Shown piece after piece: positions 36,751-54,233 of a DNA stretch of 64,000 nt. The notes under the pieces were generated by a model. The model did no database searches, had not been told where the DNA came from, and saw only the letters and a list, made by a program, of their open reading frames with translations. The DNA is from Algoriphagus terrigena DSM 22685 (GTDB taxonomy: Bacteria; Bacteroidota; Bacteroidia; Cytophagales; Cyclobacteriaceae). Location of the stretch: assembly GCF_000429445.1 (NCBI RefSeq), contig NZ_AUBW01000024.1, positions 1 to 64,000 of the forward strand, written 5' to 3'. Each line of letters begins with the position of its first letter. The stretch's first letter is position 1. The position numbers and the translations under genes were made by a program.

Positions 36751-36843
36751 AGATGAAATCGAGCATGAATCAAACGTCACAAACTGGGATGATTATCAGC
36801 CATGCGAGATTCCATGTGGCCATTGAAAATAAATTATGAACTC

Positions 36844-37869
36844 ATGAAAGCACTTTTTCTTACCGAAGTCGGAAAATCAGAAGTCCGCGAAATCGAAAAG
36901 CCATCACCGAAAGCCGGAGAAGTCCTCCTGGAAGTAGGCATGGTGGGGTTTTGCGGCGGAGACATGAATGGCTTCAAAGGCCTCTTTCCACTTCAGGAAT
37001 ACCCAAACATTCTGGGGCATGAGGTCGGAGCTACAGTCCTTGGCTATGGCACCGATGTGCCGGGCACCATCCAAATTGGCGACAAGGTCACGCTTTACCC
37101 CTACTTGGCTTGCGGTACCTGCGTGGCTTGCCGAAAAGGTCGTCCCAATGCCTGTAAAACCAACAAAACCATGGGAGTTCGTCGTCCCGGCGCCATGACC
37201 AGATACATTTGCGCGCCTTGGAAAGATCTCTTTATTTCCAAAAAACTCAACCTACGCGAATTGGCCTTGGCAGAACCCTTGACGGTAGGATTTCATGCCG
37301 TCAGCCGGGGAAGAGTCACTGCAGAAGACTGCGTCGCCGTGATCGGCTGCGGGATCGTCGGACTGGGTGCCGTCGCCTCTGCGGTCAACCGAAACGCTAC
37401 GGTAATCGCGATCGATTTGGATGACTCCAAGCTGGAAATCGCCCGCAAGATCGGCGTCGCCCATACCATCAATCCTTCCAAGGTTGACCTGCATGAAACC
37501 TTGCAAGCGCTCACCAATGGCGATGGGCCGGATGTGATCATTGAAGCCGTGGGCAGCCCGATGACTTATCGAAGTGCGGTAGAGGAAGTTGCCTTTCTCG
37601 GCAGGGTGGTGTGTATCGGCTATGCGAAGGCCGCAGTGGAGTTCAATACCTCACTTTTTGTCCAAAAGGAAATCGAAATCCTGGGATCAAGAAACTGTGT
37701 GGGAAAAGTGGATTTCCCAGAGGTAATCTCCTATCTGGAAGCCGGAAAATTCCCCGTTGAGGATGTCATTTCAAAGGTCATTTCCATCGACGAAGGGCCC
37801 GAAACTCTAAAATCCTGGTCGGAAAATCCCCAGGGCATCATCAAGATTATGATTGACTTTGACAGATAA
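36844..37869 (+). CDS. Zinc-binding alcohol dehydrogenase (sorbitol/threonine dehydrogenase-like)
   Basis: From ATG 36844 this is 341 residues. The catalytic zinc region has Cys in GFCGGDMNGFKG and His-Glu in ILGHEVGA. The structural zinc loop CGTCVACRKGRPNAC carries four Cys. A Rossmann motif (VIGCGIVGLGAVASAV, about 170) binds NAD(P). It oxidises a polyol or sugar acid. The preceding ATG at 36802 is out of pattern. It is followed 3 bp later by an epimerase gene, so the two are co-translated and probably act in one pathway. Confidence 0.9.
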   Translation: MKALFLTEVGKSEVREIEKPSPKAGEVLLEVGMVGFCGGDMNGFKGLFPLQEYPNILGHEVGATVLGYGTDVPGTIQIGDKVTLYPYLACGTCVACRKGRPNACKTNKTMGVRRPGAMTRYICAPWKDLFISKKLNLRELALAEPLTVGFHAVSRGRVTAEDCVAVIGCGIVGLGAVASAVNRNATVIAIDLDDSKLEIARKIGVAHTINPSKVDLHETLQALTNGDGPDVIIEAVGSPMTYRSAVEEVAFLGRVVCIGYAKAAVEFNTSLFVQKEIEILGSRNCVGKVDFPEVISYLEAGKFPVEDVISKVISIDEGPETLKSWSENPQGIIKIMIDFDR

Positions 37870-37872
37870 GCT

Positions 37873-38694
37873 ATGATCCGATCTGCCGTCACCATCAATT
37901 TGGTTGACACCATGAGCTCTGGGCCTTGGATCTACTGGCATGACTTAGAGGGAAGCCTGCGAAAAGCTGCTGAACTAGGCTTTGACGGGGTAGAACTCTT
38001 TACACGCTCAGGAAATGACCTGGATATCGAACACCTGCGCCAAAGGCTGGATCACTATGGGCTGTTAGTCGCAGCCGTGGGTACCGGGGCGGGAAAAGTG
38101 CTCCATGGCTTGACCCTGACTGATCCCGATCCGGAAATCCGGAAAAAGGCCATTTCCTTTATCTCAGACATGATTTCCTTTGGTGCAAAGTTTGGTGCTC
38201 CGGCGATCATCGGCTCCATGCAGGGAAGCTTTGGATTGGGTACGGGCCCAAGATTAGAGCATGGATTTCAGCACTTTTGCGAAGGGTTAGATATCTTAGG
38301 TGAACAAGCCAAAGAAGAAGGAGTGTTCCTGTTGGTCGAGCCACTGAATCGGTATGAAACTTCAGGATTCAATTACGTTTTCGCCTTTGACAACTTTCAG
38401 CCCTACCTGAAGACCAGAAACGTAAAAGTATTGGCAGATCTTTTCCACATGAATATCGAGGAGGAAAATCTGGCTCAAGCCGTTTTGGATTATGGAAAGC
38501 ACATTGGGCACGTACATTTCGCGGATTCTAATCGCCGTCCAATGGGTTTGGGTCATACTGACATGACGCCAATCGCGGAAGCGCTGAAGGAGATCGGCTA
38601 TTCAGGTTATGTCTCAGCGGAAGCGTTTCCCTACCCGAATCCGGAAGCTGCGGCGGAGCAGACGATTAGGGAGTTCCGCAAGTATTTTAGATAA
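37873..38694 (+). CDS. Sugar phosphate isomerase/epimerase (xylose isomerase-like TIM barrel)
   Basis: This 273-residue TIM barrel of the AP-endonuclease-2/xylose-isomerase superfamily has the metal ligands in order: Glu in LVEPLNRYET, Asp-x-x-His in LADLFHMNIEE, His in GHVHFAD and Glu in SAEAFPYPN. Members isomerise or epimerise ketoses, tagatose or hydroxypyruvate. It starts 3 bp after the dehydrogenase stop. With the AKR and mutarotase genes around it, a small sugar-interconversion module is likely. Confidence 0.88.
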   Translation: MIRSAVTINLVDTMSSGPWIYWHDLEGSLRKAAELGFDGVELFTRSGNDLDIEHLRQRLDHYGLLVAAVGTGAGKVLHGLTLTDPDPEIRKKAISFISDMISFGAKFGAPAIIGSMQGSFGLGTGPRLEHGFQHFCEGLDILGEQAKEEGVFLLVEPLNRYETSGFNYVFAFDNFQPYLKTRNVKVLADLFHMNIEEENLAQAVLDYGKHIGHVHFADSNRRPMGLGHTDMTPIAEALKEIGYSGYVSAEAFPYPNPEAAAEQTIREFRKYFR

Positions 38695-38697
38695 TTT

Positions 38698-38914
38698 GAT
38701 TTACGAGAAACGATTTACGAGGGGCTGAATAGAATTGAGGCTCCGGACTCTGGGGACTTTACCACCTTCCATCCTTACCATTTTCAACTTATAAAAATAT
38801 CGAACATCGAACCAGCCTGCGGCGGGCAGGTGCTGAATTTCGAACGCCGAAGTGAGGGCCAACCTTACAACTTTTGAACTTTACCACCTTACAACTGACA
38901 AAAATCTTAATTCC
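38698..38914. repeat. Dispersed intergenic repeats upstream of the mutarotase gene
   Basis: Positions 38698-38725 have the CGATTTACGAG-type repeat. Positions 38793-38813 hold an ATATCGAACATCGAAC unit, close to the complement of 62597-62618. A GCCTGC/GCGGGCAGG palindrome and two CCTTACAACT/TTACCACC-type units follow. This is a mosaic of the genome's dispersed repeats with no gene. Confidence 0.5.
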
Positions 38915-39256
38915 ATGCAACGCTTCTGCCTCACCCTTGACCTGATCGACGATCCCGAATCCATTCGCATCTATGAGCAACACCACGCTCCCGGCGCGGC
39001 TTGGCCACAGGTCACCCAGCACGACATCGACTGCGGGATTCTGAACATCGAGATCTTTCGCACCGGCAACCGGATGTTTATGATCTTGGAGACAGTGGAT
39101 GAGTTTACCTTCGAGAAAAAAGCGGAGCAGGACGGAGCCAACCCCATCATCGCCAAATGGGAGGAGCTGATGTGGGGCTTTCAGCAGCCAATTCCCTGGG
39201 CCAAACCGGGGGAGAAATGGGTGTTGATGGATCGGATTTTTAAGTCTGGATTGTGA
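38915..39256 (+). CDS. L-rhamnose/L-fucose mutarotase family protein
   Basis: From ATG 38915 this is 113 residues, the usual length. It has the RhaM/FucM-like dimeric fold, with conserved YEQHHAPGAAWPQV near the start, GNRMFMILET and the C-terminal MDRIFKSGL. It interconverts alpha and beta anomers of a 6-deoxy or hexose sugar so that downstream enzymes receive the right form. It belongs with the reductase/dehydrogenase/epimerase genes before it. A degraded copy of its 3' two thirds lies at 40031-40275. Confidence 0.88.
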   Translation: MQRFCLTLDLIDDPESIRIYEQHHAPGAAWPQVTQHDIDCGILNIEIFRTGNRMFMILETVDEFTFEKKAEQDGANPIIAKWEELMWGFQQPIPWAKPGEKWVLMDRIFKSGL

Positions 39257-40335: not shown

Positions 40336-41784
40336 TTACTCAGCAGTCTTTGCCGCCAATTTCAGCTTTCTGTTCAGTACTTTGATGGGAATTTTATACC
40401 CCAGATCAATCGCAAAGCCATTGATGCTGCCAGTGCTTTCGACTGAGATCGGCGTCCCGTTGACCACGTAGTTTGCATGGATCTTCACCAAATCAGGGGA
40501 CGCAAAGTTTTTGGAAAGCTTAAAAGTCAGCAAACTGGAGTTGAAAACACTCATCTCAACCAGAACCCCGGCATTGAAAGCAAACCTGCCATGCGTGAGT
40601 TCTCTATCTGAATATGCTTCGCTGGTGTATTCAAATTCCTTTCCGTAGATAATTGCACCTCCCTTGCCAGATGAAGTAAACCAGGAATTGCTCTGATCTT
40701 TTAGCATAAAATACGTACTGAGACTGGGCCCGATTCTTAACGAGTTTCGATCATTAAGCGCGATTTGGTACTTGATAGTAAGTGGGATCACAGGCATATT
40801 GTAAGGCTCCCAGCTCATAATCACCGCTTCTATTCCCTCGAAGTCGATTTGATAGTTGGCGTTGTAGGTAAAATTCCCGAAGCCTGATTCCAGAGAAAAC
40901 CCATTCCGATAATAACCCAAAACAGTCTGAAACTGGCTGCTGGAATTGGAATACCCATAGTCGTTAGAAAGTGGATTCTCCCTACTTCTCAGGCCCCCAT
41001 ACGCCATAAAATACCAGCCATCTTCCAAGGAAAGTTCGTGCTTCAGCAATTTATTATCGTTGTAAAGCCGCTTTGGGGCTCGGCTCATCGTAGTCTTCAT
41101 ATTCACGCCATTGATCCCATATCCCAGAAAAAGCCCGACATAGGAACCTCTACTTTTGACCGACAGTACATTCTCTATGCGTTCATTGTATCGGACGGGC
41201 GCATTCATCTGATCCATCACCCAGAGCCCCTGCTGATATCTCAGACCTCCGAAAAAATAATTCCCTCTGCGGTTATAAATCTTGGTGCCGCCTTCCAGTC
41301 TTATTCCCATTCCAATATCAGACATGGATCTGACCCCAAGCGGAATCCCGTCCCATTCATTGTCACTTTCATAGATATCCAGAACCGCAGGACTTTTCAT
41401 CAAACTAAGGCTCGGCTGGAGATAGAGATTTCCCCAGGTTTTTCGCACTCCCAAAGCGATCAGCGGAATCCCCGCGGTCGAATAACCTGTAATCTGCAGC
41501 GTATCTATTTGTCTGGAGTAGGCATAAGTCCCCAGCTCTCGCTTGAAAAACTCCAGCTGGGCACTGAACTGCCAGTCGTTTTTCAGCCCCCAAAGAAAAC
41601 TGGATCCGATATGCCAACTAACCTGATTGCTTGGGGATATGTTATAGTTATTCGGGGTAACTTCATAGTTCAAAAGTGCCTTGGATGGCCCGCCATATAG
41701 CTCGATTGCAAACTTCTCCTGAGAGAAACTTCCTGATACACAGCCGAAAAATGCGAAAGCGAAAAATAGCGTTGATCTATTCAT
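40336..41784 (-). CDS. Predicted outer-membrane beta-barrel protein
   Basis: This 482-residue protein has a signal peptide (GCVSGSFSQ) and many aromatic, amphipathic strands of about 10 residues separated by loops. There is a repeated GYxRNGFSLESGFGNF-like pattern, but no plug or STN domain. The end, LNRKLKLAAKTAE, is charged, which is unusual for a barrel, so the last strand may end a little earlier. I do not recognise the family. It lies last in the leftward locus with the BASS transporter and the RraA/enolase genes, 75 bp after the transporter gene. Confidence 0.68.
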   Translation of the reverse strand: MNRSTLFFAFAFFGCVSGSFSQEKFAIELYGGPSKALLNYEVTPNNYNISPSNQVSWHIGSSFLWGLKNDWQFSAQLEFFKRELGTYAYSRQIDTLQITGYSTAGIPLIALGVRKTWGNLYLQPSLSLMKSPAVLDIYESDNEWDGIPLGVRSMSDIGMGIRLEGGTKIYNRRGNYFFGGLRYQQGLWVMDQMNAPVRYNERIENVLSVKSRGSYVGLFLGYGINGVNMKTTMSRAPKRLYNDNKLLKHELSLEDGWYFMAYGGLRSRENPLSNDYGYSNSSSQFQTVLGYYRNGFSLESGFGNFTYNANYQIDFEGIEAVIMSWEPYNMPVIPLTIKYQIALNDRNSLRIGPSLSTYFMLKDQSNSWFTSSGKGGAIIYGKEFEYTSEAYSDRELTHGRFAFNAGVLVEMSVFNSSLLTFKLSKNFASPDLVKIHANYVVNGTPISVESTGSINGFAIDLGYKIPIKVLNRKLKLAAKTAE

Positions 41785-41859: not shown

Positions 41860-42942
41860 TTATCGCTCTTTCACTTCCCTTTTATGCCAGTAAGAAGCCA
41901 AGATCGACCCTGAGATATTCATCACCGGACCAAAAACTGCCGCAGCTAAGCCTACGGTGGCGATCTTGCCCATCTCTTTGGCAATTCCCGAGGCCAATCC
42001 GGCGTTCTGCATACCGACCTCAATGGCTACGGTGCGGCAGTCCTTTTCACTCATTCTACATAGTCTGGCAAACCAATACCCGATCGAATAGCCAGAAAAG
42101 TTGTGTATCAAAACCAAGCCAATCAACAGTAATCCAATGTCCAACAAGGCATCCCGCCCAGCTGCTGTGATCACGACGATAATCAAACCAATCCCGATCA
42201 TGGACACGAGCGGCATGGCTTTGTCCAGCCAGCCAGATTTGCCTCTGAAGATCTTATTGAAGATCAGACCGGCCCCAATCGGGATGATGATCATCTTGAA
42301 GATATCCCACATCATCTTCACCAAGTCGATCTCGATATACTGTCCTGCCAGCATTTTCATCAAAAAAGGCGTCATCAGCGGCGCCAGCATCGTGGTCACC
42401 GCAGTCAGCGTGATGGAAAGCGCCAAATTGGCTTTCGCCAGATAGGTCATCACATTACTGGCCAAGCCGCTCGGAGAGCTTCCGATCAAAATCAGACCGG
42501 CGGCAATCTCAGGCGGCAAGCCACTGAGCCAAGCCAAGGTCACACCCAGCAAAGGCATGATCAGAAACTGTGCTCCTACTCCTATCAGCACGGCCTGGGG
42601 AGTCTTCACAACCCCGGCGAAGTCTCGGATACTCATCGATGTCCCCATCCCGAACATGATCACCTGGATCAGTGGAGTGATCAGATTGGTGAATTTGTAA
42701 CCGTTGTACTCTTGGAAAAACCCAGGGTAAAACATTGCCATGGTCACGGCCGCAAGGATCATCAGCGAATAGGTCAAGCCCCTGAGCGACTCATAGCCCC
42801 GACTTCCGATCCCCAGCAAGACGAAGAATAAGATCAAAAGCGGGCCTGTCCAATCGGTAAGGGAACTTGCCCACGCTCCGAGACTGAGAAGCAAAACAAA
42901 AAAAGAACTGTAGAGGAAGTAAGAATAGGTTTTTGGATTCAA
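41860..42942 (-). CDS. BASS-family (bile acid:sodium symporter-like) transporter
   Basis: This 360-residue inner-membrane protein has about ten TM helices. The family motifs IGSSPSGLASNVMTYLAKAN (the crossover region) and EVGMQNAGLASGIAKEM near the C-terminus are present. Members import organic acids such as pyruvate, pantothenate or bile acids with Na+. The location just downstream of two RraA/enolase cassettes suggests uptake of the small keto acid they could release; this is inference. A terminator lies between it and the enolase gene. Confidence 0.9.
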   Translation of the reverse strand: MNPKTYSYFLYSSFFVLLLSLGAWASSLTDWTGPLLILFFVLLGIGSRGYESLRGLTYSLMILAAVTMAMFYPGFFQEYNGYKFTNLITPLIQVIMFGMGTSMSIRDFAGVVKTPQAVLIGVGAQFLIMPLLGVTLAWLSGLPPEIAAGLILIGSSPSGLASNVMTYLAKANLALSITLTAVTTMLAPLMTPFLMKMLAGQYIEIDLVKMMWDIFKMIIIPIGAGLIFNKIFRGKSGWLDKAMPLVSMIGIGLIIVVITAAGRDALLDIGLLLIGLVLIHNFSGYSIGYWFARLCRMSEKDCRTVAIEVGMQNAGLASGIAKEMGKIATVGLAAAVFGPVMNISGSILASYWHKREVKER

Positions 42943-43023: not shown

Positions 43024-44511
43024 TTAGCTGTAAGTCCGATCGTGAGAACGTTTTTCATTCCACATATCAGTCGGAGCAAAATAGCTGTTGTCAGATTTGT
43101 GTAGATGAGCTTTGACCACCTCCTCATTCAGTTCGATGCCTAAGCCCGGTGCATCCAGCGGAACCGGCGCGTAGCCTTTGTCGATCATCTTGCCTCCACC
43201 GGTCATGATGACCATGTCTTCCCACCAAGGAATATCTACCGAGTGATGCTCGAGTGCCAGGAAGTTTTGCGAAGCGGCTGCGCAATGAACATTTGCCATG
43301 AAAGAAACGGGAGTTCCTGCTTGGTGCATAGCCATCGAGATCCCCTTTTCCTCTGCATAATCCGCAATTCGCTTGGTCTCCAAAAGCCCGCCCGAAGAGG
43401 CTAAATCCGGATGGATAATATCCACCGCATGATTGTCTATCAGGTCTTTGAAGTATTGAAGCAGATAAATATCCTCACCCGTCGTAGTCGGCGTGTTCAG
43501 GGAATCGGTGATCGTCTTGTGCTGTTGCCACATCTGCCACGGCACCATATCCTCCAACCAAGCCAGACGGTATTTATCAAGCGCCTGCCCCAGCCGGATG
43601 CAATTGTTCAAATCAAAGTGTCCGTAGTGATCTGTAGATATTGGGATATCATAGCCTACCATCCCCCGCACATGATCGACAATCTTTGCCAGTTCGTCGA
43701 GACCTTTCTCTGTAATCTGAATCCCGGTGAATGGATGCGCCGTGTTTGAATAGGAATTATACCCACCAGACCATTGGCTCCTCCCTCCTAGTTTAAAAAT
43801 CTCAGGATTCACGATACACCCCGGGATATCCATGATTTCTCCAATGGAGACGTCCATCTTCAGCCAGGTATATCCCTGCTCTTCTGTTCTGAATTTGATC
43901 AACTTCAATTGTTCTTCAGGGGAATCGGCCTCGGGTGTATCGGCATAGAGCCGCACCGAATCGCGATATCGCCCTCCGAGGAGTTGCCAGGCTGGCACGT
44001 TGTAGGCTTTTCCGCAAAGATCCCACAGCGCCATTTCCACTCCGCAGACTCCTCCGGCTTGGCGGGACTGACCTCCAAACTGCTTGATGATCTTGAAGAT
44101 CTTCTCCACGTTGCATGGGTTTTCGCCTAGAATCCGGCTTTTCAGCATCAGCGCATACTTGGGATCAGCTCCATCCCGCACTTCCCCCAACCCATAAATG
44201 CCTTGGTTGGTATCAATCCTCAGAATCGCCGTCCCGCCCATTACAGCAGTGTGGGCATATCTCAGATCGGTGATCTTCAAATCAGATGGAGCGGAAGCTC
44301 TTTTTACATTCTTGGTGGTTTCGGCCATCGTGTCCTCGATCCCGAGGCCCATGAGCGCAGTCAGACTCAGCCCACCCAGCGCTGTTTTCTTCAAAAAATC
44401 CCGTCTGTTATCTTTTGTAAATGGGCTATCGATTTCCGCCTGCCGCTGCACAGCGTAAGCTCGCTCCTGCTCCTTATTCTTCTGAATCAGGTGTTGTAAT
44501 GTGTTTTTCAT
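43024..44511 (-). CDS. Enolase-superfamily dehydratase with Tat signal, copy 1
   Basis: This 495-residue protein has a twin-arginine signal (NRRDFLKKTALGGLS, RR at 36-37) after a 30-residue basic/polar N-terminus. The mandelate-racemase-type N-domain follows (about 75-190), then the barrel. K218 (WLKMD) and metal ligands D294 (STDHYGHF), E320 (WLEDM) and E346 (GEDIY), with H396 (MAMHQAG), are all in place. It probably dehydrates a sugar acid, but outside the cytoplasm. It is 53 bp downstream of an RraA gene. The exact substrate is not predictable. Confidence 0.86.
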   Translation of the reverse strand: MKNTLQHLIQKNKEQERAYAVQRQAEIDSPFTKDNRRDFLKKTALGGLSLTALMGLGIEDTMAETTKNVKRASAPSDLKITDLRYAHTAVMGGTAILRIDTNQGIYGLGEVRDGADPKYALMLKSRILGENPCNVEKIFKIIKQFGGQSRQAGGVCGVEMALWDLCGKAYNVPAWQLLGGRYRDSVRLYADTPEADSPEEQLKLIKFRTEEQGYTWLKMDVSIGEIMDIPGCIVNPEIFKLGGRSQWSGGYNSYSNTAHPFTGIQITEKGLDELAKIVDHVRGMVGYDIPISTDHYGHFDLNNCIRLGQALDKYRLAWLEDMVPWQMWQQHKTITDSLNTPTTTGEDIYLLQYFKDLIDNHAVDIIHPDLASSGGLLETKRIADYAEEKGISMAMHQAGTPVSFMANVHCAAASQNFLALEHHSVDIPWWEDMVIMTGGGKMIDKGYAPVPLDAPGLGIELNEEVVKAHLHKSDNSYFAPTDMWNEKRSHDRTYS

Positions 44512-44564
44512 TTTATAGTTGTTTTGGGTTTTGTTATGTTGAAAAAAGAGAAAGGATCAGCCTT

Positions 44565-45515
44565 CTACCAATTCCTTTCCTTGAAGTAATTGTCGAGTTC
44601 GGCTTTGCTCATGGGAAGTTTTCCAGGGTAGTTGTTGAGCCAATCCAGGAAGTCCTTTTTGATGGCATCTGTCCACTGACTGTCGATCTCACCGGCGAGG
44701 TATTTCCCTTCGCGCAAGCGCAGGTGTCCAAACTCATCCCGCAGTCCGGTCACTTCAGAAGTCAAAACCAGCTCCTCCACCAAGTAGGCAGGGATAAAAA
44801 TCACCCCGTATTTTTTCGCCAAAACCACATCGCCCGGCAGGACGGTAGCCCGACCTACCCGAATCGGTGTGTTGATCGAGCTGAGCATCATCTGCTGAAT
44901 GTAAGATGGATCTTGGCCCTTCATCCAAGCGTTGAATCCGTCGATCTCAGACAGCCCTTCCTGATCCCGCACTGATCCGTAGAAGATCACTCCACGCTGG
45001 GATTTCGCATAGATGGAGTTCCCAAGGTTGTCGCCGATGAGCGTCCCGTCGGCGATCTTGCCATAGCCGTCCGCCACATAGACGTCGCCATTTGTCAGGA
45101 TATCAATGGGCCAGGAGTTGGTTCCTCCTTTGGGCGACCGACCCTCTTTGTCCACGCCCTGGGTTTTCACCTGCTTCTCCAGATCCGGTCTCAGCGGCAT
45201 GTATTGGGCAGTGACCACGCGGCCTGTCATGGCCTCGTCCGGCAGCATGATCTGCCAGTCTCCTTCGTATTGATTTTGGAAGCCCTTGTTGCGAAGGACG
45301 CCCCAGGCCTCTTCAATTGAGATGTTTTTAAGACGCTCCAAAATAGCATCTGAGACTTTGGGTCTGCCATCCGGAAATCGCTCCCCCGTCCAGTCCGCCG
45401 TCAGCGCTTTGATATACTCGGGACTTGCCCCGACATTTTGTGAAAATGCCTGCGTTGCCAGCCCGCCAGAGAGCAGGAGAAGTGTAAGCAAGCGGAAAAA
45501 TCCGGTGTGTTTCAT
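44565..45515 (-). CDS. RraA-family aldolase-like protein with signal peptide, copy 1
   Basis: This 316-residue protein has a signal peptide (GGLATQAFSQ) followed by an N-terminal extension and the RraA/HMG-aldolase fold. The core GDVYVADGYGKIADGTLIGD, then AKSQRGVIFYGSVRDQEGL, carries the conserved Arg-Asp. In the enzyme branch, the fold cleaves 4-hydroxy-4-methyl-2-oxoglutarate-type acids to pyruvate; in the other branch it inhibits RNase E. Export rules out the RNase role. It is paired with the enolase gene 53 bp downstream. Confidence 0.85.
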   Translation of the reverse strand: MKHTGFFRLLTLLLLSGGLATQAFSQNVGASPEYIKALTADWTGERFPDGRPKVSDAILERLKNISIEEAWGVLRNKGFQNQYEGDWQIMLPDEAMTGRVVTAQYMPLRPDLEKQVKTQGVDKEGRSPKGGTNSWPIDILTNGDVYVADGYGKIADGTLIGDNLGNSIYAKSQRGVIFYGSVRDQEGLSEIDGFNAWMKGQDPSYIQQMMLSSINTPIRVGRATVLPGDVVLAKKYGVIFIPAYLVEELVLTSEVTGLRDEFGHLRLREGKYLAGEIDSQWTDAIKKDFLDWLNNYPGKLPMSKAELDNYFKERNW

Positions 45516-45697
45516 AAGTTTTGGGTTATTGGTTATTGGACTATTCGTTATTGGTTTACTATAATGGGTTAAGGGTTAAGTTAGAACTGAACGTTGCTTG
45601 CAATTCAGGCTTCGACTACCTCAGCCTGACAACGTCCTACTACTCGCTGCAGAACACTGCAAACTGATCAATGAAAACTGCTGACTGGCAAAAGCTT

Positions 45698-46972
45698 TTA
45701 TTCGAAAAAAGGAACCCCTGGGACGGCATGTTTCTTCATCCCTTCCTCATTGATTTCGACGCCAATTCCCGGCTTTTCCGACAGGGTGATAAAACTGTTT
45801 TCGGTCCTCGGCCCGTCGTAGGTCACGATATCCTGCCAAAGCGGATCCGTGTCCATGTAGATCTGCCACTCCATGATCTGGAAATTTGGAACCGAAGCGC
45901 AGACATGACAGGAAGCCATAGCGCCTAAGAACGAAGCGACCATGTGGGGAGAAAATGGCACGTAGTACAAGTTGGCGAGATTGGCAATCCGCTGGCCTTC
46001 ACCGAGTCCACCGGCTTTTTGCAAATCGGGCATTATAATATTCAGTGCTCCATCAGAAAGCAACTTGGTAAATCCATAGGCTAAATAGATATTTTCGCCA
46101 GCGCAAATCGGAGTGCTCGTCTCTTGTGTGATGTACTTATACATTTCTGGATTATCCGCAGGGATGGGTTCTTCCAAGAACATCAAGTTCAAAGGTTCGT
46201 AAGCTTTCGCCATCTTCATCCCCGTGACCGCATCGTATCTCCCGTGCATATCCACACAGATATCAATATGTGGCCCCACAGTTTCTCGCACCGCCGCGAT
46301 CGCGTTGTACATTCTATCAATCTCAGCAGGACTTGCAGTCCAGTTGAAGCGGTCATACTTATTGGGATCACGTGCGTCGTCCACGTCAAACTTGACCGCG
46401 TTGTAGCCTCGACTTACTGCATTTTTGGCGGCAGCCGCATAGTCATCCGGAGTGGGTTTGGTGGAAGTGTAGAGGGCCGTGTCACAATAGACGCGGATCT
46501 TGTCCCGGAATTTCCCTCCCAAAAGCTGGTAAACAGGTACTCCAAATACCTTTCCGGTCAGATCCCAAAGCGCTGTCTCAATGGCAGTCAAAACAGCCAC
46601 ATAAACGCCGGATTGAGCTCCGCCAAAGAAGGCGCCCTTTCGAAGTTGCTCGGCAAGCCGGTTGGGATTCAGGGGACTTTGTCCTTTGATCTGATCACCC
46701 AGTCTTTTGACCATGTAGTAGGTTCCTTGGATCGCATCCACTGCTTCTCCGCAACCCCACACGTCCTGATTGGTGTAAATCTTCACATACACCGCACCGC
46801 GGACATAGCCACACTTCACGTCGGTGATCTTGAGATCTGATGGTGCGGATGCTTTGGGTGTTTTCTCCACTGCGGCTTCCAAGCCACTTCCGAAAGTACT
46901 CAGGAAGGCTGCGCCGGTGAGTCCTATGCTTTTTTGAAAAAATGCTCTTCTGTCTTCTATTTTTGGATTCAT
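45698..46972 (-). CDS. Enolase-superfamily dehydratase with Tat signal, copy 2
   Basis: This 424-residue protein starts with a twin-arginine signal (EDRRAFFQKS, RR at 8-9). The barrel has K194 (AVKFDVD), D241 and H243 in CVDMHGRY, E267 (FLEEP), E293 (AGENIY) and H343 (SPHMV). The D-x-H-G-R motif and the late His are the arrangement I know from galactonate dehydratase. It probably dehydrates a hexonate or 6-deoxy-hexonate in the periplasm. It is 17 bp downstream of the RraA copy 2 gene. It is not a close copy of the 43024 protein. Confidence 0.87.
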   Translation of the reverse strand: MNPKIEDRRAFFQKSIGLTGAAFLSTFGSGLEAAVEKTPKASAPSDLKITDVKCGYVRGAVYVKIYTNQDVWGCGEAVDAIQGTYYMVKRLGDQIKGQSPLNPNRLAEQLRKGAFFGGAQSGVYVAVLTAIETALWDLTGKVFGVPVYQLLGGKFRDKIRVYCDTALYTSTKPTPDDYAAAAKNAVSRGYNAVKFDVDDARDPNKYDRFNWTASPAEIDRMYNAIAAVRETVGPHIDICVDMHGRYDAVTGMKMAKAYEPLNLMFLEEPIPADNPEMYKYITQETSTPICAGENIYLAYGFTKLLSDGALNIIMPDLQKAGGLGEGQRIANLANLYYVPFSPHMVASFLGAMASCHVCASVPNFQIMEWQIYMDTDPLWQDIVTYDGPRTENSFITLSEKPGIGVEINEEGMKKHAVPGVPFFE

Positions 46973-46989
46973 GGTATCGTTGATTTAGG

Positions 46990-47922
46990 TTACCAGGTTC
47001 TGTTTTTCAAGTAGTCTTGGATTTGCTCTCGGGAGACGGGAAGCTCGTCGATGTGGTCATTTAGCCATTGGGAAAAATCCCGCTCGATCTCCTCTGACCA
47101 GCGGGTATCAATCTCGCCAGCCGTGTATTTCCCCTCTCTCAATCGCTCGTGACCAAACATGTCACGAAGGCGGACGATCTCTGAGGTGATCACCACTTTC
47201 TCCACCAAGTGGGCCGGAATAAAGGACACTCCTCCATCTCTCCCCAAGACCACGTCTCCGGCCATCACCGTCGCCTGACGGATCCGAGTCGGCTGATTGA
47301 TGCCGATGAGCATGGTGTTGAGGTTACCTTGCTGGTTGTGGTGAGAAGGATGATAGCTCGTATAGTAAGAGGTGAATCCGCCGATTTCTTTGAGACCTGC
47401 GATGTCGCGGACGGCGCCGTCGTAGACAATTCCGTTGCCGGATTTGGCAAAGATGGCATTGCCGACGTTGTCACCGATCGTGGGTCCATTGACATGAATC
47501 CCAAACTGATCCGCAACATAGACATCGCCTTGGACTAAGAGATCCACCGGCCAGGAGTTTTGCCCTCTTTTACCTTCCTTTTTACCTCGTTCATCAATAG
47601 CATTATGGATGTCGGGCCGTCCGGGCATAAAGGTCGCCGTGACCGCTCTGCCAATGAGAATGCTGTCGGGATTGATGATCTCCCACCCATCGGCATATTG
47701 GTAAAAGTATCCAGCTCCCTTCATCACCGCCCACGCCTCGTCATGCGTCACCAGCCGCATCCGTCTGAGTAAATCGTCGGACACTTTGGGACGGCCATCC
47801 TCAAATCGTTCGCCAGTCCATTCTCGGGTCAGGTAGATCAGTTCGTCTTTGGAGATTTGCTGCGCAAAGGAAAATAAGCAGCTCGTCAGCCAGAATAGGC
47901 CGACTAGTATTGTTCTTTTCAT
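46990..47922 (-). CDS. RraA-family aldolase-like protein with signal peptide, copy 2
   Basis: This 310-residue protein has a signal peptide (SCLFSFAQQI) and the RraA core: NGPTIGDNVGNAIFAKSG and VYDGAVRDIAGL with the conserved Arg-Asp. Its extension and C-terminus (SWP, GEIDTRW) closely parallel copy 1, so the pair arose by duplication. It is the first gene after the SusD terminator and is 17 bp upstream of the enolase gene. The likely reaction is retro-aldol cleavage of the product of the dehydratase, or of a related branched hydroxy-acid. Confidence 0.85.
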   Translation of the reverse strand: MKRTILVGLFWLTSCLFSFAQQISKDELIYLTREWTGERFEDGRPKVSDDLLRRMRLVTHDEAWAVMKGAGYFYQYADGWEIINPDSILIGRAVTATFMPGRPDIHNAIDERGKKEGKRGQNSWPVDLLVQGDVYVADQFGIHVNGPTIGDNVGNAIFAKSGNGIVYDGAVRDIAGLKEIGGFTSYYTSYHPSHHNQQGNLNTMLIGINQPTRIRQATVMAGDVVLGRDGGVSFIPAHLVEKVVITSEIVRLRDMFGHERLREGKYTAGEIDTRWSEEIERDFSQWLNDHIDELPVSREQIQDYLKNRTW

Positions 47923-48096: not shown

Positions 48097-49614
48097 TTAT
48101 TTATGCCACCAGACTTTCGTAGCCAGATTATCGGGTCCTTGTGCAGAGATTGCTGCCCCTACATTTTCCGAGTTTACCGATATTTCAGAGTTTGGATAGG
48201 TCAACCGATTTATAAAGTCCACCTCCCGGCCGGTATAGGGATTGGCAGTCAAAGCCGGAAAACCAGTTCTTCGGAAGTTGGCAAACGCCTCAGGTCCATT
48301 TAAGAAGGAAGACACCCAGTATTGCTCGCCGATCTGCTCCATTGCATTCTCTTCCACGAGGGGATTGGCTGCCAAGTAGTCAACAATGGACGAGACAGGG
48401 ATGGAAGAACTTGCGCCATAAGCTGACAGCTGCTCCATATGTGCCCGTACCCCGGCATTGTAATATCCTTCTACCGTCTGGGTAGTGACCCAACCTCTCA
48501 TTCTCGCTTCGGCAAGAAGTAGGAGATTTTGGGAGGCAGTCACCAGAAAGTTCGGTGCGGTATTTTTCACCATCCGTTGTCGATCCACCTGCGCGAATTC
48601 ATAAAAACTCTTAAGTCCCAAGTCAGCGGCAGCTTTTACCGCTCCGGCATTGTCATTCCCCATAGGCATCCCAACTTGGATCGCCGGGTCAGTGGATGCT
48701 CTGGCAGGAACCTGCTCTGGGCCTGAACTTGCCCCCACATACGTCACCGCTATTGCTGTGAGTCTTGGGTCGTTGTGTTCCTGAAGATATTTGACAAAAA
48801 CGTCCGTCAGGTAAAAATTGGATGCCTCGGTGGCATTTAGCATGTTGCCGATGGGATTGGTATAGTTCGGATCGTGCAGGATTACGGCGTTGTCTGCGTT
48901 GGAAAGTATCACACCTCCCTGCGCTGCTGCCTGCACTGTTGCCTGAGCTTTGGCAGGATCCACCTCGCTCAGTCTCATGCCCGCACGCAATAGAAGTGAA
49001 TAGCCAAAGCTCTTCCACTTCGCAATATTTCCGCCGTAAAGAATATCCGCCACCTCTATCCTACCCCCCGCATCCAATGCCGTGGTAGCTTCGGTGAGCT
49101 CCTTGATCAAATCCTGATAGATTGCCTCCTGAGAATCATACACCGGAAAGAAAATCTGCTGAGAATACCCCTCGCCTCCTTCGAAATATGGGATAGTTCC
49201 ATAGGTATCGGTAAGTACCATGAAGGCATTTGCCTGAAGGATTCGAGCCATTTGATAGAGATTGGCCCGAGCGGGATCCTCTTTGACTTGGTTGATGACG
49301 TCTTTCGTGTTTTTGATGACGTTCCGATAGTAGGCTTGCCAGCTGTCATCCGTGATTTGGCGATTGTCCTGATTGTAATTGGCTCCAGCAATCAAGCCGG
49401 AGTTTGGAGAGATTACCTGCTGCACGACCCCGATCTCATAGATCATGGTTCCGGTATTGAAGGCGCTGTTGACCGCGGCGTTGTTCAATTGGAATGCAGG
49501 ATCAATGGCCGTTGCACTTACTTTATTGGTATTGAGTTCGTCAAATCCATCGTCACACGCAGATGAATAGGCCAAAATGGACACCAAGATTAGATAGTTT
49601 ATGATCTTTTTCAT
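48097..49614 (-). CDS. SusD-like outer-membrane lipoprotein
   Basis: This 505-residue lipoprotein has a signal ending LAYSSACDDGF with lipobox Cys at about 20. The SusD/RagB-type helical body contains TPR-like regions, IFFPVYDSQEAIYQDLIKEL and a late GREVDFINRLTYPNSE. SusD proteins cap the SusC channel and bind the substrate outside the cell. It is 11 bp downstream of susC, as usual. The bound ligand is unknown and need not be a polysaccharide; this cluster suggests a small acid or glycoside. Confidence 0.92.
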   Translation of the reverse strand: MKKIINYLILVSILAYSSACDDGFDELNTNKVSATAIDPAFQLNNAAVNSAFNTGTMIYEIGVVQQVISPNSGLIAGANYNQDNRQITDDSWQAYYRNVIKNTKDVINQVKEDPARANLYQMARILQANAFMVLTDTYGTIPYFEGGEGYSQQIFFPVYDSQEAIYQDLIKELTEATTALDAGGRIEVADILYGGNIAKWKSFGYSLLLRAGMRLSEVDPAKAQATVQAAAQGGVILSNADNAVILHDPNYTNPIGNMLNATEASNFYLTDVFVKYLQEHNDPRLTAIAVTYVGASSGPEQVPARASTDPAIQVGMPMGNDNAGAVKAAADLGLKSFYEFAQVDRQRMVKNTAPNFLVTASQNLLLLAEARMRGWVTTQTVEGYYNAGVRAHMEQLSAYGASSSIPVSSIVDYLAANPLVEENAMEQIGEQYWVSSFLNGPEAFANFRRTGFPALTANPYTGREVDFINRLTYPNSEISVNSENVGAAISAQGPDNLATKVWWHK

Positions 49615-49625: not shown

Positions 49626-52600
49626 TTAGAATTTAACATTAAGATTGAAACCTAAGCCCCGTGTAGATGGCAAGCCAGCAGATTCCATTCCGACCAGATT
49701 GTCGGAAGAATATCCGAAAGACTCCGGATCGATGTTGTCTACCCACTTCTTGATCATGAGCACATTATTCGCCACGAAGTTGAGTTTGACTGAGCGGAAG
49801 GGTTGATTTTCCGGAAGGAATCTGGTAAAGTCATAGCCCAGCGTCACCTGTCTAAGTTTCCAATAGCCGCCGTCATAGATGACCGGCTCCACAAGCGCCT
49901 GCGATCTCACTATTTCCCAATAAGACTGCACCGGAGCTACTGCTGTATTTTTCTCCCCTGCTTCGTTCACTCCATCGCCTACTACTCCGCCTTCACGTCC
50001 TTCGAGGGTCATCTTGTGCAGACCGTGTCTCGTCGCATTGAAATTGGTGCCGGAGAGCATGATATTGCCCAGCTTGAAGTCAATCAAAAACGAAAGCTTT
50101 ACCCCTTTGAAATCGAATGAGTTATTAAAACCTCCGACCCACTTGGGCAGTGCGCTACCGAAATTGACCAAATCCGGCGTCCGAAGCGGAAGACCGTTGG
50201 CTCCGAAGATCTTTTGACCTTGCTCATTTCTCCTGAACCCAAATCCAGCTACCTGGCCCATCTCCATGCCTACTATCTGTCTGAGTTCGCCATTGAACAC
50301 GTGCGTACCCACGGTGATCCGCTCTCCCGGAGTATCGGTGAGGAGGCTCAGCACTTCTGTGATATTGTAGGATCCGTTGAAGGAGGTTTCCCATGTGAAA
50401 TTCTTGGTCTCTAAGGGAACAAGGGTCAGGAGCATTTCGACTCCTTTGTTTTCACTTCGTCCGCTGTTGATCGAGGTATTGACAAAGCCTGAAGCATCGG
50501 AAATCTGCGCACTGACAATCTGATCCGTTGTGAGTTTTCGATAGGCCGCTACGTCCAGCGTGATTCGGCTTTGGAGCATCCGCAACTCAAAACCCACCTC
50601 AGTCTCACCGATTCTCATCGGCCTCAAATCCGGATTGGGAAGATTGGTTCCATTTGGCCCACCGACCGGTTGTCCGCCAAGCAAGTTGCTATTCACACCG
50701 TAGAAAAGCACATTGGAATAAGGCCCTACATCGGCGTCACTTCCTACTTCCGCATACGCTACCCGCAACTTTCCGAAGTTTATCAAACCGGTATTTCCCG
50801 TGTTTTCGGTAAATACCCAGCTCGCCGAGACAGACGGATAGACGATACTTCTATTGGCTTCGGACAAGGTAGAGAACCAGTCGTTTCTTACGGTACCAGT
50901 CAGGAAGAGCATGTCTTTGTAAGAAACCTCCGCAGAACCATACAGGGAATTGACCGCCCGCTCGCTCATATCGTAGATCGGATCTTTGGCGCGGCCATTT
51001 TGCACGGTGTAAAGATCTCTCACCACAAAGTCGGTCACCTGCACACTGTTGCGGTCAGACCGTCGCTGCATGTGATTGCCACCAAAGTTTGCATTCACCG
51101 TAAAATCCCCGAATGTCTTATTTGCATTCAGCAAGAAGTCCGTGTTGATCTCACGGAATCTTCTGGACTCCTGCGTGTATACGCCATTGACAAAACCAGC
51201 CGGAGCCGGAGCCCGTGAGGCTTGTCCTGTCGGGAAGTTGTTGTAGTCCTGATCTCTTGACCAATAATCTTCACCAACTCTGCCTTGGATAAACAGCCAA
51301 GGAAGGATGTTGTATTTCACTGCGATGTTTCCGAAAATCCGGTCTCGCTTGATATTCTGAAACTGTTCAGCGAGGGTGAAATAAGGATTGGTGCGGTTTC
51401 GGAATCTTGAATACACAGCCTCGTTGCCATTCTGATCGTACTTGTTTTCATCCAGCACGTTCAAAGGCATCGAATTGGCCATGGCGTACATTGCCGTCGG
51501 GATAGAGTTATCCTGATCGGCGATGTTCGGCGGATTGCTGTTTTCCTCTACCGAATAGTTAAAGTTGCCTCGAAAGCTAAACTTCGGGCTCAGGTCATAG
51601 CCAAAACCCAAATTGATGGTTTTTCTATTGAAGGTGTTGTTTGGCACCACGCCCTTGCTGTTCAGATCAGAAAATGACAAACTCATGCCTCCCTTGTCGC
51701 CCGCAGTCGCCAAAGTGACCGAGTTGGTCACGTTTTGACCATTCCTGAAGAAGTCGCCAATTTGATCATACACCGGTACGTAGGGGACTGTCACTCCGTT
51801 GAAAAGTACCTGCGTCATTCCGGGCTGGAATTTCTCTCCAAAAGACCATTGTCCTGAAGTAGGGTTCGCCGTCGTCGGCCTTACTCCCTGTTCTCCTTGA
51901 CCATATTCATATTGGTAGTCCGTGAAATCGAGCGGTGCTTCATTGGTGTAGTTGAGGTTGTAGGTGACGCCGATTCCTTTGGAGTCATTCTTGGTCTTGG
52001 TGGTGATCATGATGACGCCGTCTTTGGCACGTGAGCCGTAGAGTGCCGCAGCGGCAGCGCCTTTTAATATCGTCATGCTTTGGACGTCATCCGGATTGAT
52101 ACTGGAGAGACCATCGCCACCATCAGAGGTATTTCCTCCCCCAGCTCTCACCCCGATGGAGCTTTCAGATCCACTGCTATTAGGATTGGTTCCAAAGTTT
52201 GTATTGTCAATCGGAACACCATTGACTACGATGAGTGGGCTGTTTTGACCCGAGATGGAAGACTGACCGCGAATACGGATCTTGGACGTCCCGCCTGGGC
52301 CGGTTCCAAGTCCGGAGATACTCACACCGGCGACTTTGCCCTGCAGGGCATTGATCACGTTGGGAGTTCGGTTGATCGTCAATTCATCCGACTGGACCGT
52401 GGAAGTGGCGTATCCAAGGCTTTTGCCTGACTTTTCTATTCCCAAGGCAGTGACCACGACCTCTTCCAGATCATTTTGATCCAGCTTCATCGTGACGTTG
52501 ATCACCGACCGGCTTTGCACGGCCTCCTCCTGAGAGATGTAGCCTACGAAAGAAAAGACGAGGGTTGCGTTGCCATCTGGGACGCTGATGCTAAAATCCC

Positions 52601-53159
52601 CAGTGGTGTTAGTCACCGCGCCCGTGCTGGTGCCTTTCACCAGGATGTTAACCCCTGGAAACCCGTTGCCATTTTCGTCAAGGACTTTTCCCGTCACATT
52701 GACTTCGTATCGACGCAATTGGTCAGACCGGTTCGACACGGCAGGCCCTTTGATCGCGGCTGTATTGGAGCGGCTGGTCAGGGTGGCGGTCATCGGTGAT
52801 TCGAGGCCCGTGCTCAGCGGCTTCTCACCCTTTTTTGGATAGATCACGAAGAAACCGCTGCCGGCCTTCTCATACGTCAGCCCAGAATCCTTCAAGATTT
52901 CCTTGAGGCCTTCCTCCACCGTCTGGAATTTTTTCTTGGTGGTCCTGACTTGCTTTTTGGCCACCAAGTCGTCCTTGAAGGCAATCGAGACATCAAATTG
53001 AGCTTCCAAGGAGGTCAGTCCCTCCTTGAGCGTAAAACTGGATACGGCGTTCGTCCCGGACTGGAATTTGCCGGAGGAAGCCAGTACCTCCTTGTACTGG
53101 GCCTGCACCCATTGGATGCCAGCTCCGTACAAACAGAGCATTAGTAAAAGCTTTTTCAT
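49626..53159 (-). CDS. SusC/RagA TonB-dependent receptor with STN domain
   Basis: This 1177-residue protein has a signal peptide, an STN (secretin/TonB N-terminal) domain at about 40-115 (LEAQFDVSIAFKDD), a carboxypeptidase-regulatory-like domain (VTGKVLDENGNGFPGVNILV), the TonB plug (NALQGKVAGVSISG, KIRIRGQSSISG) and a long barrel ending with LNVKF. It imports its ligand across the outer membrane with TonB energy. The STN domain signals to FecR encoded upstream. The length fits SusC with STN. Confidence 0.95.
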   Translation of the reverse strand: MKKLLLMLCLYGAGIQWVQAQYKEVLASSGKFQSGTNAVSSFTLKEGLTSLEAQFDVSIAFKDDLVAKKQVRTTKKKFQTVEEGLKEILKDSGLTYEKAGSGFFVIYPKKGEKPLSTGLESPMTATLTSRSNTAAIKGPAVSNRSDQLRRYEVNVTGKVLDENGNGFPGVNILVKGTSTGAVTNTTGDFSISVPDGNATLVFSFVGYISQEEAVQSRSVINVTMKLDQNDLEEVVVTALGIEKSGKSLGYATSTVQSDELTINRTPNVINALQGKVAGVSISGLGTGPGGTSKIRIRGQSSISGQNSPLIVVNGVPIDNTNFGTNPNSSGSESSIGVRAGGGNTSDGGDGLSSINPDDVQSMTILKGAAAAALYGSRAKDGVIMITTKTKNDSKGIGVTYNLNYTNEAPLDFTDYQYEYGQGEQGVRPTTANPTSGQWSFGEKFQPGMTQVLFNGVTVPYVPVYDQIGDFFRNGQNVTNSVTLATAGDKGGMSLSFSDLNSKGVVPNNTFNRKTINLGFGYDLSPKFSFRGNFNYSVEENSNPPNIADQDNSIPTAMYAMANSMPLNVLDENKYDQNGNEAVYSRFRNRTNPYFTLAEQFQNIKRDRIFGNIAVKYNILPWLFIQGRVGEDYWSRDQDYNNFPTGQASRAPAPAGFVNGVYTQESRRFREINTDFLLNANKTFGDFTVNANFGGNHMQRRSDRNSVQVTDFVVRDLYTVQNGRAKDPIYDMSERAVNSLYGSAEVSYKDMLFLTGTVRNDWFSTLSEANRSIVYPSVSASWVFTENTGNTGLINFGKLRVAYAEVGSDADVGPYSNVLFYGVNSNLLGGQPVGGPNGTNLPNPDLRPMRIGETEVGFELRMLQSRITLDVAAYRKLTTDQIVSAQISDASGFVNTSINSGRSENKGVEMLLTLVPLETKNFTWETSFNGSYNITEVLSLLTDTPGERITVGTHVFNGELRQIVGMEMGQVAGFGFRRNEQGQKIFGANGLPLRTPDLVNFGSALPKWVGGFNNSFDFKGVKLSFLIDFKLGNIMLSGTNFNATRHGLHKMTLEGREGGVVGDGVNEAGEKNTAVAPVQSYWEIVRSQALVEPVIYDGGYWKLRQVTLGYDFTRFLPENQPFRSVKLNFVANNVLMIKKWVDNIDPESFGYSSDNLVGMESAGLPSTRGLGFNLNVKF

Positions 53160-53186: not shown

Positions 53187-53220
53187 TGATTGGCACTCTT
53201 TATTGATTGGCACTCTTTAT
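53187..53220. repeat. 17-bp direct duplication at the fecR stop codon
   Basis: TGATTGGCACTCTTTAT occurs twice in tandem (53187-53203 and 53204-53220) and ends inside the fecR stop codon. Both copies are identical, so it is a recent slippage or repair event in the 57-bp susC-fecR gap. It may change the spacing between the fecR stop and the susC start. Confidence 0.8.
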
Positions 53221-54233
53221 TCCATATAGTAAATAGAATCACGGTATTCAATTTGGATATTGAAGATCCTGGCGGTGAGCCTCATGAATGATGCTCCATC
53301 CGATAGCGGCATAGACCCGGAAGCACTTTGGCTCAGCTTCACCTGAGGACCCACCTGGACTTTCAGTCCATAGTTTTCCTCGGCCATTCTGACCATTTCG
53401 TCGAGGGTGGTACTTTCCAACTGCAGCACTTTTTTCGTCCAAGAGACATAGGAAACCGGGTCTACACGTTTCTTCTGAATCTTTTCCTGGTCGTACTCCA
53501 CCAGATCTCCAGGTTTCATTAGGATTTTAGAGTTCTTCGGACGATCGGTGAAGCTCATGGTCACATTCCCCTCACTGAGCAACACTTTCGTCTGATTCTT
53601 CCTTTGATAGACATTGAACTGGGTACCCAAAACTTCCACCTCTATTCCCGATGCCGGGTAGACTTTGAAAGGCTGATCAGTCTCGATATGCTGCACATCA
53701 AAAAATGCCTCACCATCGATCCAAACCTCCCGGATGGAATTGGAATCCCATTCCTGACTGAAGCTCAGCGTTGAGTTGGAATTCAACATCACCGTCGAAC
53801 TATCCGGAAGTACAATGTTCAGCGTCTCGCCATAGCCGGTTCGGTAGATGGTCTGTTGGGAATCTTTTGCCAAGAAAAAATACAGAGCCAGACCCGAGGC
53901 CAACACAAAGCAAGCTGCCATCCAAGTGTACCTAAGCCGATGAAAAAGTGAGTCTTTCACGACCGAAAGCGACCTGGGTTGAATGTCCTGTTGGATGTTT
54001 TTCCAGATCCCCTGGATATCCGAATCCTTCAGTCGGTAGGCCGGGGTGTTGATCTCAATCAAAATCCTCCGGGCTTCTTTGATTTGGGGGAGCGCATTTG
54101 GATTTTGGGAAATCCAGTCCCTCCAAAAATCCTCCTGAGACTGGTCTGTTCGTAACACCCAATTCTGGAAATTGGGATCATCCAAAAATTGCTCGATCGA
54201 GTAAGAGCTACTTGAATCTGAATATTTGCTCAC
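53217..54233 (-). CDS. FecR-type anti-sigma/signal transducer
   Basis: This 338-residue protein has an N-terminal cytoplasmic sigma-binding region (about 1-95), one TM helix (about 107-128, MAACFVLASGLALYFFLA), the FecR periplasmic domain (TGYGETLNIVLPDSSTVMLNSN, about 135-240) and a DUF4974-like C-terminus (about 265-338). It senses the STN domain of SusC and releases or holds the ECF sigma factor. It lies between the sigma and susC genes, the standard order. Confidence 0.93.
   Translation of the reverse strand: MSKYSDSSSSYSIEQFLDDPNFQNWVLRTDQSQEDFWRDWISQNPNALPQIKEARRILIEINTPAYRLKDSDIQGIWKNIQQDIQPRSLSVVKDSLFHRLRYTWMAACFVLASGLALYFFLAKDSQQTIYRTGYGETLNIVLPDSSTVMLNSNSTLSFSQEWDSNSIREVWIDGEAFFDVQHIETDQPFKVYPASGIEVEVLGTQFNVYQRKNQTKVLLSEGNVTMSFTDRPKNSKILMKPGDLVEYDQEKIQKKRVDPVSYVSWTKKVLQLESTTLDEMVRMAEENYGLKVQVGPQVKLSQSASGSMPLSDGASFMRLTARIFNIQIEYRDSIYYME

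Follow-up and report, generated by a model that had tools for sequence, protein, structure and literature searches.

Organization of the RraA-enolase gene cluster

The 64,000-nucleotide stretch of Algoriphagus terrigena DSM 22685 DNA analyzed here (contig NZ_AUBW01000024.1, positions 1 to 64,000; hereafter the window) contains five consecutive minus-strand genes, downstream of a SusC-SusD pair, that encode two RraA-family proteins, two enolase-superfamily proteins and a BASS-family transporter. Under labels coined for this analysis, these are RraB (46990-47922; 310 amino acids (aa); PF03737, 49.8 bits), with a Sec-type signal and a possible lipobox; EnoB (45698-46972; 424 aa; PF13378, 198.9 bits), a candidate acid-sugar dehydratase with a twin-arginine translocation (Tat) signal and a D-M-H-G-R motif; RraA (44565-45515; 316 aa; PF03737, 63.2 bits), with a Sec-type signal; EnoA (43024-44511; 495 aa; PF13378, 149.3 bits), with a Tat signal and a D-H-(Y/F)-G-H motif; and the transporter (41860-42942; SBF family PF01758, 142.7 bits, cut-off 24.3), a candidate 2-oxo acid importer. 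Both RraA-family proteins exceed the PF03737 gathering cut-off of 24.5 bits and are the only two matches to that family in the 5.78-Mb genome, and both enolases contain Pfam MR_MLE_N and MR_MLE_C domains. Upstream lie a SusC-type TonB-dependent outer-membrane transporter (49626-53159, minus strand; TIGR04056, 629.1 bits, cut-off 368.25) and a SusD-like outer-membrane lipoprotein (48097-49614, minus strand; PF12771, 268.3 bits, cut-off 27). A first-pass annotation of 43024-47922 had described signal-bearing RraA proteins alternating with twin-arginine enolases and followed by a BASS gene; the open reading frames, Pfam matches and motifs confirm this arrangement.

Relatives were collected by scanning genome contigs with six peptide patterns of one protein, RraA. 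This yielded 72 loci, all of them from Bacteroidota groups by title except L079 (Acidobacteria); 31 further stretches, minus one repeat (L133, which equals L102), brought the set to 102 loci, and genome-wide counts refer to a sample of 395 Bacteroidota genomes. The locus set leans towards close relatives of RraA, and many loci stop at contig edges, so that absences are uncertain; L132 has no labelled RraA frame. In a survey of neighborhoods, a check that the first-pass annotation had suggested, the arrangement recurs in Algoriphagus, Aquiflexum, Prolixibacteraceae, Chitinophagaceae and others, and this recurrence across Bacteroidota groups excludes a chance juxtaposition. The nearest named relatives among the fetched loci are Algoriphagus species, the window BASS being 93% identical to that of A. 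aestuariicola.

RraA-EnoA and RraB-EnoB are separate modules

The two RraA-enolase pairs had been annotated as duplicate cassettes, a description that overstates their similarity. RraA and RraB are 47% identical, but EnoA and EnoB are only 30% identical and differ in their active sites. Assigning the proteins of other loci by best match to the window copies, we found RraA followed by EnoA 68 times and RraB followed by EnoB 35 times in the 102 loci (median gap 49 bp), with no cross pair among these 103. A recent cassette duplication was rejected on the strength of this strict pairing and of the low identity between the enolases. RraB-EnoB-BASS also occurs in sampled stretches that hold no RraA-EnoA pair (for example L130 and L131). 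L102 (Algoriphagus boritolerans) retains no full RraA and only a fragment of EnoA (12240-12902), which indicates that the modules can be lost separately; in L137 (genome G049) the RraB frame is broken.

Some loci carry additional genes at the module boundaries. L054, L061 and L077 have a DapA-like protein, an FGGY kinase, a class II aldolase and a fourth conserved protein between RraB-EnoB and RraA-EnoA, an insert that is perhaps a second, phosphorylating branch. Immediately 3' of EnoA, L069 (12570-13847), L089 (12595-13869) and L094 (12576-13847) encode a GlcNAc 2-epimerase-family protein with a signal-like start, the family assignment coming from a PF07221 scan of the L089 protein.

Export signals in both enzyme types

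Export signals were read from the sequences by motif and hydrophobic pattern rather than by a trained predictor. RraA and RraB have Sec-type N-termini, and RraB additionally has a lipobox-like LTSC and might be a lipoprotein. EnoA and EnoB carry the twin-arginine motifs NRRDFLKK and DRRAFFQKS, respectively, and TatC is encoded in the genome.

These features, first noted in the window proteins, persist in their relatives. Once five weak or partial enolases are set aside, a strict Tat pattern is present in 62 of 62 EnoA and 28 of 32 EnoB proteins from the 72 loci, the four EnoB misses comprising three twin-arginine signals that the strict pattern does not cover and one frame without a start. A hydrophobic N-terminus is found in 67 of 70 RraA and 24 of 26 RraB proteins of the same loci; all five exceptions stem from frames that are cut, fused or mis-started. 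Among the 31 further stretches, 27 of 27 enolases have the Tat motif and 31 of 33 RraA/RraB proteins the hydrophobic stretch, the misses being one protein just below threshold and the broken frame of G049. Judged by these patterns, the predicted export signals are well conserved in both enzyme types.

Active-site residues of the two enolases

Residue conservation was counted in long proteins, window copies included (59 EnoA, 28 EnoB, 67 RraA and 26 RraB). As the first-pass annotation had stated, the metal ligands are complete in both enolases: D294/E320/E346 of EnoA are kept in 59/59 proteins, together with D369-H396 and E421, and in EnoB the ligands D241/E267/E293 are kept in 28/28, along with H243, D316, H343 and E368, with R245 present in 27. 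The annotation had also placed a D-x-H-G-R motif in one enolase copy, which proves to be EnoB. A D-x-H at the first metal ligand, the motif of galactonate dehydratase, occurs in all 28 EnoB proteins and in none of the 59 EnoA proteins, which instead have D-H-(Y/F)-G-H (Y in 36, F in 23), with the invariant H295 and H298 flanking the Y/F position. Where EnoA has Y/F, the five Protein Data Bank (PDB) entries that were aligned with its profile show the histidine of a DxH or ExH. Because this histidine is absent, the reaction of EnoA could differ.

By family models, both enolases score best against galactonate, gluconate and mannonate dehydratases (PRK14017, NF040790 and ManD). The scores stay below the cut-offs, at 244.7 bits (EnoB) and 172.5 bits (EnoA) against 311 for galactonate dehydratase PRK14017, and at 171 bits (EnoB) and 144.1 bits (EnoA) against 550 for D-mannonate dehydratase ManD (NF043051); we therefore dropped both equivalog names for EnoA and EnoB. 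The nearest PDB entry to EnoB is 2qq6, and the predicted structure of EnoA matches 2qq6, the gluconate-bound enolase 3t6c, 4ihc and the gluconate dehydratase 3tw9, its matches including entries titled gluconate and mannonate dehydratase. The window enolases thus match structures of enolase-superfamily dehydratases, and EnoB keeps their DxH, but unlike those enzymes they carry Tat signals and fall below every NCBIfam cut-off, and EnoA lacks the DxH histidine. The EnoA model has a mean predicted local distance difference test score (pLDDT) of 74.7, with residues 26-74 and 247-262 below 50; therefore, no active-site geometry was read from it.

Residues and fold of RraA and RraB

RraA and RraB share the spacing D-X20-R-D, a motif of class II pyruvate aldolases. 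D162 of RraA is present in 65 of 67 proteins, and R183 and D184 in all 67; in RraB, D151, R172 and D173 are all kept in 26/26. The predicted structure of RraA (pLDDT 86.7) matches RraAS2 (5x15) and 4-hydroxy-4-methyl-2-oxoglutarate/4-carboxy-4-hydroxy-2-oxoadipate (HMG/CHA) aldolase (3noj) with Foldseek E-values of 2.1e-12 to 2.3e-12 and VIA-align Z scores of 21.9 and 19.7, respectively, the latter over 209 residues at a root-mean-square deviation of 3.8. In the alignment, R183 and D184 take the positions of Arg-123 and Asp-124 in HMG/CHA aldolase, which are reported to stabilize the pyruvate enolate and to bind the metal (PMC5065237). RraA thus shares the fold of that enzyme and the D-X20-R-D residues, and its Pfam score is above cut-off; it differs in being predicted to be exported, in its length of about 310 aa, in being only about 20% identical and in its tie to enolase genes. 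A further metal ligand of 3noj, Glu-199, lies opposite R259 of RraA, next to D260, which is present in 66/67 proteins. RraA scores 36.6 bits against the RNase E regulator model PRK09372 (cut-off 136) and RraB has no match to it at E 0.001, and an identity as RNase E regulators was rejected on this basis.

The RraA residues allow retro-aldol cleavage. However, FlDet of Flavobacterium sp. UMI-01, likewise a Bacteroidota RraA-family enzyme, is reported to act on a 2-keto-3-deoxy sugar acid as a dehydratase/decarboxylase of KDGR, a 2-keto-3-deoxy-hexarate (PMC8563752), so that aldol cleavage is not the sole option for RraA. FlDet is a 27-kDa protein from an alginate context, is likened to RraA by description rather than by sequence, and comes from a paper whose main text contains the words periplasm and signal peptide zero times (PMC8563752). 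By analogy, FlDet fits a 2-keto-3-deoxy substrate class for RraA, not cleavage as such. The RraA reaction may be cleavage, isomer exchange or another lyase reaction.

Exported partner enzymes in other Bacteroidota

The exported RraA of other Bacteroidota, which often comes with BASS, adjoins further enzymes with export signals, including divergent, twin-arginine-bearing members of the families of UxuA (mannonate dehydratase) and DgaE (glucosaminate-6-phosphate ammonia lyase). Partner counts in the 102 loci rest on bit-score thresholds specific to this analysis; L078 and L088, UxuA-like by clustering, fall below them and are excluded. Tat-signal UxuA-family proteins occur in 10 loci; in L093 and L101 such a protein has no adjoining enolase. 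The one UxuA-family protein scanned scores 243.8 bits against the mannonate dehydratase subfamily model PRK03906 (cut-off 191) and exceeds the cut-off of the NCBIfam model TAT_signal_seq. The A. terrigena genome itself encodes an ordinary UxuA without a Tat motif, away from the cluster.

DgaE-like pyridoxal phosphate (PLP) lyases are present in five loci (L099, L111, L113, L115 and L123), and no enolase match was found in these five stretches. All seven proteins have a twin-arginine pattern, as do 4/5 RidA-family proteins found in four of the loci, this pattern being looser than the strict one used for the enolases. The same loci hold amidohydrolases with signal-like starts (9/9) and, in three cases, SMP-30 lactonase-family proteins (signal-like start in 2/3). 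Among the 395 genomes, RraA relatives occur in 24, with a signal seen in 23 and a broken copy in G049. Strong DgaE-like matches (E < 1e-30; at most four candidates scored per genome) occur in seven, all of them within the RraA-bearing 24 (hypergeometric 1.2e-9, kinship ignored), and lie less than 10 kb from RraA in four. None of the co-occurrence counts reported here takes account of relatedness or genome size.

Pyrroloquinoline quinone (PQQ)-dependent dehydrogenases are found in 8/102 loci, with a best model of glucose/quinate type below cut-off, and a major facilitator superfamily (MFS) transporter, matched best by a D-galactonate transporter model but also below cut-off, in 6/102. In L087 (3977-7327), BASS and a PQQ/cytochrome c dehydrogenase form a single open frame of 1116 aa; L103 (from 1749) has a BASS-PQQ junction with a different linker that runs to the contig end, and L084 (from 4976) ends just inside it.

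Enolase-superfamily sugar-acid dehydratases, UxuA and DgaE all form a 2-keto-3-deoxy acid, which in the DgaE reaction carries a phosphate (for DgaE, as reported in PMC9529869). Because these exchangeable partner families share this kind of product, we place a 2-keto-3-deoxy acid at the center of the pathway. The exchangeable exported partners point to its formation in the periplasm, and relatives and gene partners together point to sugar acids as the substrate class.

The BASS transporter and its link to KDG kinase

BASS is present in 61 of the 102 loci, directly following RraA in seven cases. The window copy exceeds the PF01758 cut-off and matches two NCBIfam models, BASS (TIGR00841) and the PanS ketopantoate/pantoate transporter (NF047939), but lies below the cut-offs of both, with 223 bits against 400 for PanS.

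A homologue of the kinase of 2-keto-3-deoxygluconate (KDG), KdgK, is found in all 24 RraA-bearing genomes, compared with 147 of 395 overall (hypergeometric 1.4e-11 by genome and 3.7e-6 by genus, genome size uncorrected), and the PF01081 aldolase also in 24/24. The A. terrigena genome encodes a pair of KDG-kinase and PF01081 (2-keto-3-deoxy-6-phosphogluconate (KDPG) aldolase) homologues away from the cluster. In L069, L076, L088 and L104, KdgK adjoins BASS. These four BASS proteins fall in a group of 17 with 100/100 support, together with eight BASS proteins that neighbor Rra or Eno genes; a division of the BASS tree into pyruvate and KDG clades failed, the KdgK-linked copies sitting in this mixed group. 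The KdgK-linked loci suggest that BASS there imports an uncut 2-keto-3-deoxy acid. Since the window BASS lies outside the group, this reading reaches it by homology alone. Because KdgK is present in 24/24 genomes and adjoins BASS in four loci, we judge BASS uptake of uncut KDG about as likely as uptake of pyruvate.

A candidate periplasmic route for sugar acids

We propose with moderate confidence that SusCD, the enolases, RraA/RraB and BASS form an exported sugar-acid catabolic module, the reactions, substrates and transported compound being those we infer from gene order, signal motifs, residues, pairing and partners. A small sugar acid, probably a hexonate, would enter the periplasm through SusCD, where Tat-exported EnoB and EnoA would dehydrate it to a 2-keto-3-deoxyhexonate (KDG or 2-keto-3-deoxygalactonate (KDGal)). 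Sec-exported RraA and RraB might then act on this 2-oxo acid by metal- and arginine-stabilized pyruvate-enolate chemistry, resulting either in cleavage to pyruvate and an aldehyde or in stereoisomer exchange, and BASS would carry the resulting 2-oxo acid over the inner membrane. The KDG-kinase and KDPG-aldolase homologues encoded elsewhere in the genome could complete the breakdown. We advance more tentatively, as a view that may well prove wrong, the wider proposal that Bacteroidota possess a modular counterpart, placed in the periplasm, of the non-phosphorylative Entner-Doudoroff pathway. In this scheme, exported PQQ dehydrogenase and lactonase would make aldonates, exchangeable exported lyases (enolase, UxuA, or DgaE with RidA) would convert them to 2-keto-3-deoxy acids, exported RraA would process these outside the cytoplasm and BASS would import the 2-oxo acid; the window would hold a two-module version.

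Several observations weigh against these proposals. Neither window enolase reaches an NCBIfam cut-off, and EnoA lacks the galactonate dehydratase histidine throughout. The partner proteins, too, mostly score below curated cut-offs: the scanned UxuA-family protein reaches 169.1 bits against the uxuA equivalog cut-off of 199.55, the scanned DgaE-like protein reaches 167.9 bits against 385.3 for TIGR01437, although this is its best model, and the scanned KDG-kinase homologues reach no cut-off, with KDG-kinase models among their best. TIGR01437 is matched above cut-off in 0 of 395 genomes and has no match in the A. terrigena genome among the at most four candidates scored. No UxuA, DgaE-like, PQQ, KdgK or lactonase gene was recognized adjoining the window cluster, and the window BASS falls outside the group that contains the KdgK-linked copies. 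There is also an internal tension, in that cleavage of KDG by RraA would make the kinase link odd, whereas without such cleavage the constant presence of RraA would have no reason.

The main alternatives differ in what RraA does and what BASS carries. The first-pass annotation had proposed periplasmic dehydration and retro-aldol cleavage with uptake of a released keto acid. Its periplasmic setting is favored by the conserved export signals, the retained catalytic residues, the sugar-acid partners and the frequent presence of BASS; its retro-aldol and product-uptake steps are weakened by the universal presence of KdgK in RraA-bearing genomes. That both reactions finish in the periplasm, with BASS importing pyruvate and the aldehyde being oxidized or diffusing in, is possible but in our estimate unlikely. 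In its favor, RraA has the D-X20-R-D residues and the fold of class II pyruvate aldolases, BASS scores, below cut-off, with a model of ketopantoate/pantoate transporters and can follow RraA directly, and the window copy stands apart from the KdgK-linked BASS proteins. Yet KdgK adjoins BASS in four loci, no exported aldehyde-handling enzyme was recognized among the labelled neighbors (many neighbors being unscanned), and the 3noj ligand E199 has R259 opposite it in RraA, with D260 adjoining. We see a similarly limited chance that the enolases make KDG or KDGal outside, that BASS imports it uncut for a cytoplasmic kinase and aldolase, and that RraA either turns stereoisomers into one another, through aldol cleavage followed by re-addition, or prepares the substrate. 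The BASS-KdgK neighbors and their shared BASS group, the enrichment of KdgK homologues, and the MFS protein with a D-galactonate transporter as best model agree with this course. Against it, co-occurrence of the two genes may simply reflect large, sugar-rich genomes, the window BASS is not in the KdgK-linked group, and no epimerase is known to us among RraA-family proteins.

The same exported chemistry might instead serve not a plain hexonate but another 2,3-dihydroxy acid, for example an aldonate that is branched, deoxy, pentonic or glycosylated. We consider this rather improbable: the Y/F of EnoA at the position of the PDB histidine, the low NCBIfam scores of the enolases and the SusCD pair, which suggests a cargo larger than a monosaccharide, speak for it, but the UxuA and DgaE-like partners seen in other genomes are of hexonate families, the DxH site is present in EnoB, and the EnoA-model matches include a gluconate-bound enolase and gluconate/mannonate dehydratase entries. 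Finally, the proteins could be dead homologues acting as binding proteins, or their signals could be non-functional and leave all of them in the cytoplasm. Apart from the missing DxH histidine of EnoA, the evidence makes this very improbable, as the metal ligands and Asp-His dyad are invariant in both enolases, nearly every full-length member retains its signal motif, and TatC is present. The first-pass annotation had named binding-protein homologues with mutated catalytic residues as grounds for abandoning its idea; since the metal ligands and dyad are invariant, we set degenerate binding proteins aside as unlikely.

Dehydration and cleavage of sugar acids are normally cytoplasmic chemistry. 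A limited test of the open-access literature found, among the matches listed, no description of an exported RraA, an exported enolase-type sugar-acid dehydratase or such a pathway. The enzyme families and reactions are already known; the novelty would lie in the compartment and the module. If the proposal is correct, various environmental Bacteroidota dehydrate and further convert sugar acids outside the cytoplasm. This would assign a role to a group of RraA-family proteins so far known by family name alone, suggest that BASS transporters have a further, new class of substrate, and show how cells could use sugar acids that they are unable to import in unaltered form. The cluster also supplies a few enzyme-substrate pairs that can be put to the test.

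Neighboring genes

The cluster lies within a longer minus-strand string of co-directional genes. This string opens with a putative extracytoplasmic function (ECF)-type sigma factor (54354-54947; 197 aa), which has a homologue at the same place in relatives, and a putative FecR-like anti-sigma factor (53217-54233; 338 aa), which also has homologues in relatives; these are presumed identities, the sigma factor being named from sequence and place and the second protein by its presumed likeness to FecR. The string ends with a 482-aa protein with a signal-like start (40336-41784) that has no Pfam match and whose membership is doubtful, as low-scoring homologues (37-38 bits) at the same place were found only in L041, L042 and L070.

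On the plus strand, 35661-39256 encodes in a row an aldo-keto reductase, a zinc alcohol dehydrogenase, an IolO-like epimerase and a RhaM-family protein, the first three with NCBIfam scores below cut-off. Membership of these genes in the cluster is unsupported, three of them lying near it only in L042 among the 72 loci. The row resembles genes for L-glucose/L-galactose reported from Luteolibacter (PMC12632266). Beside it, also on the plus strand, 34726-35532 encodes a 268-aa protein with a twin-arginine-like start, RRPFLQK.

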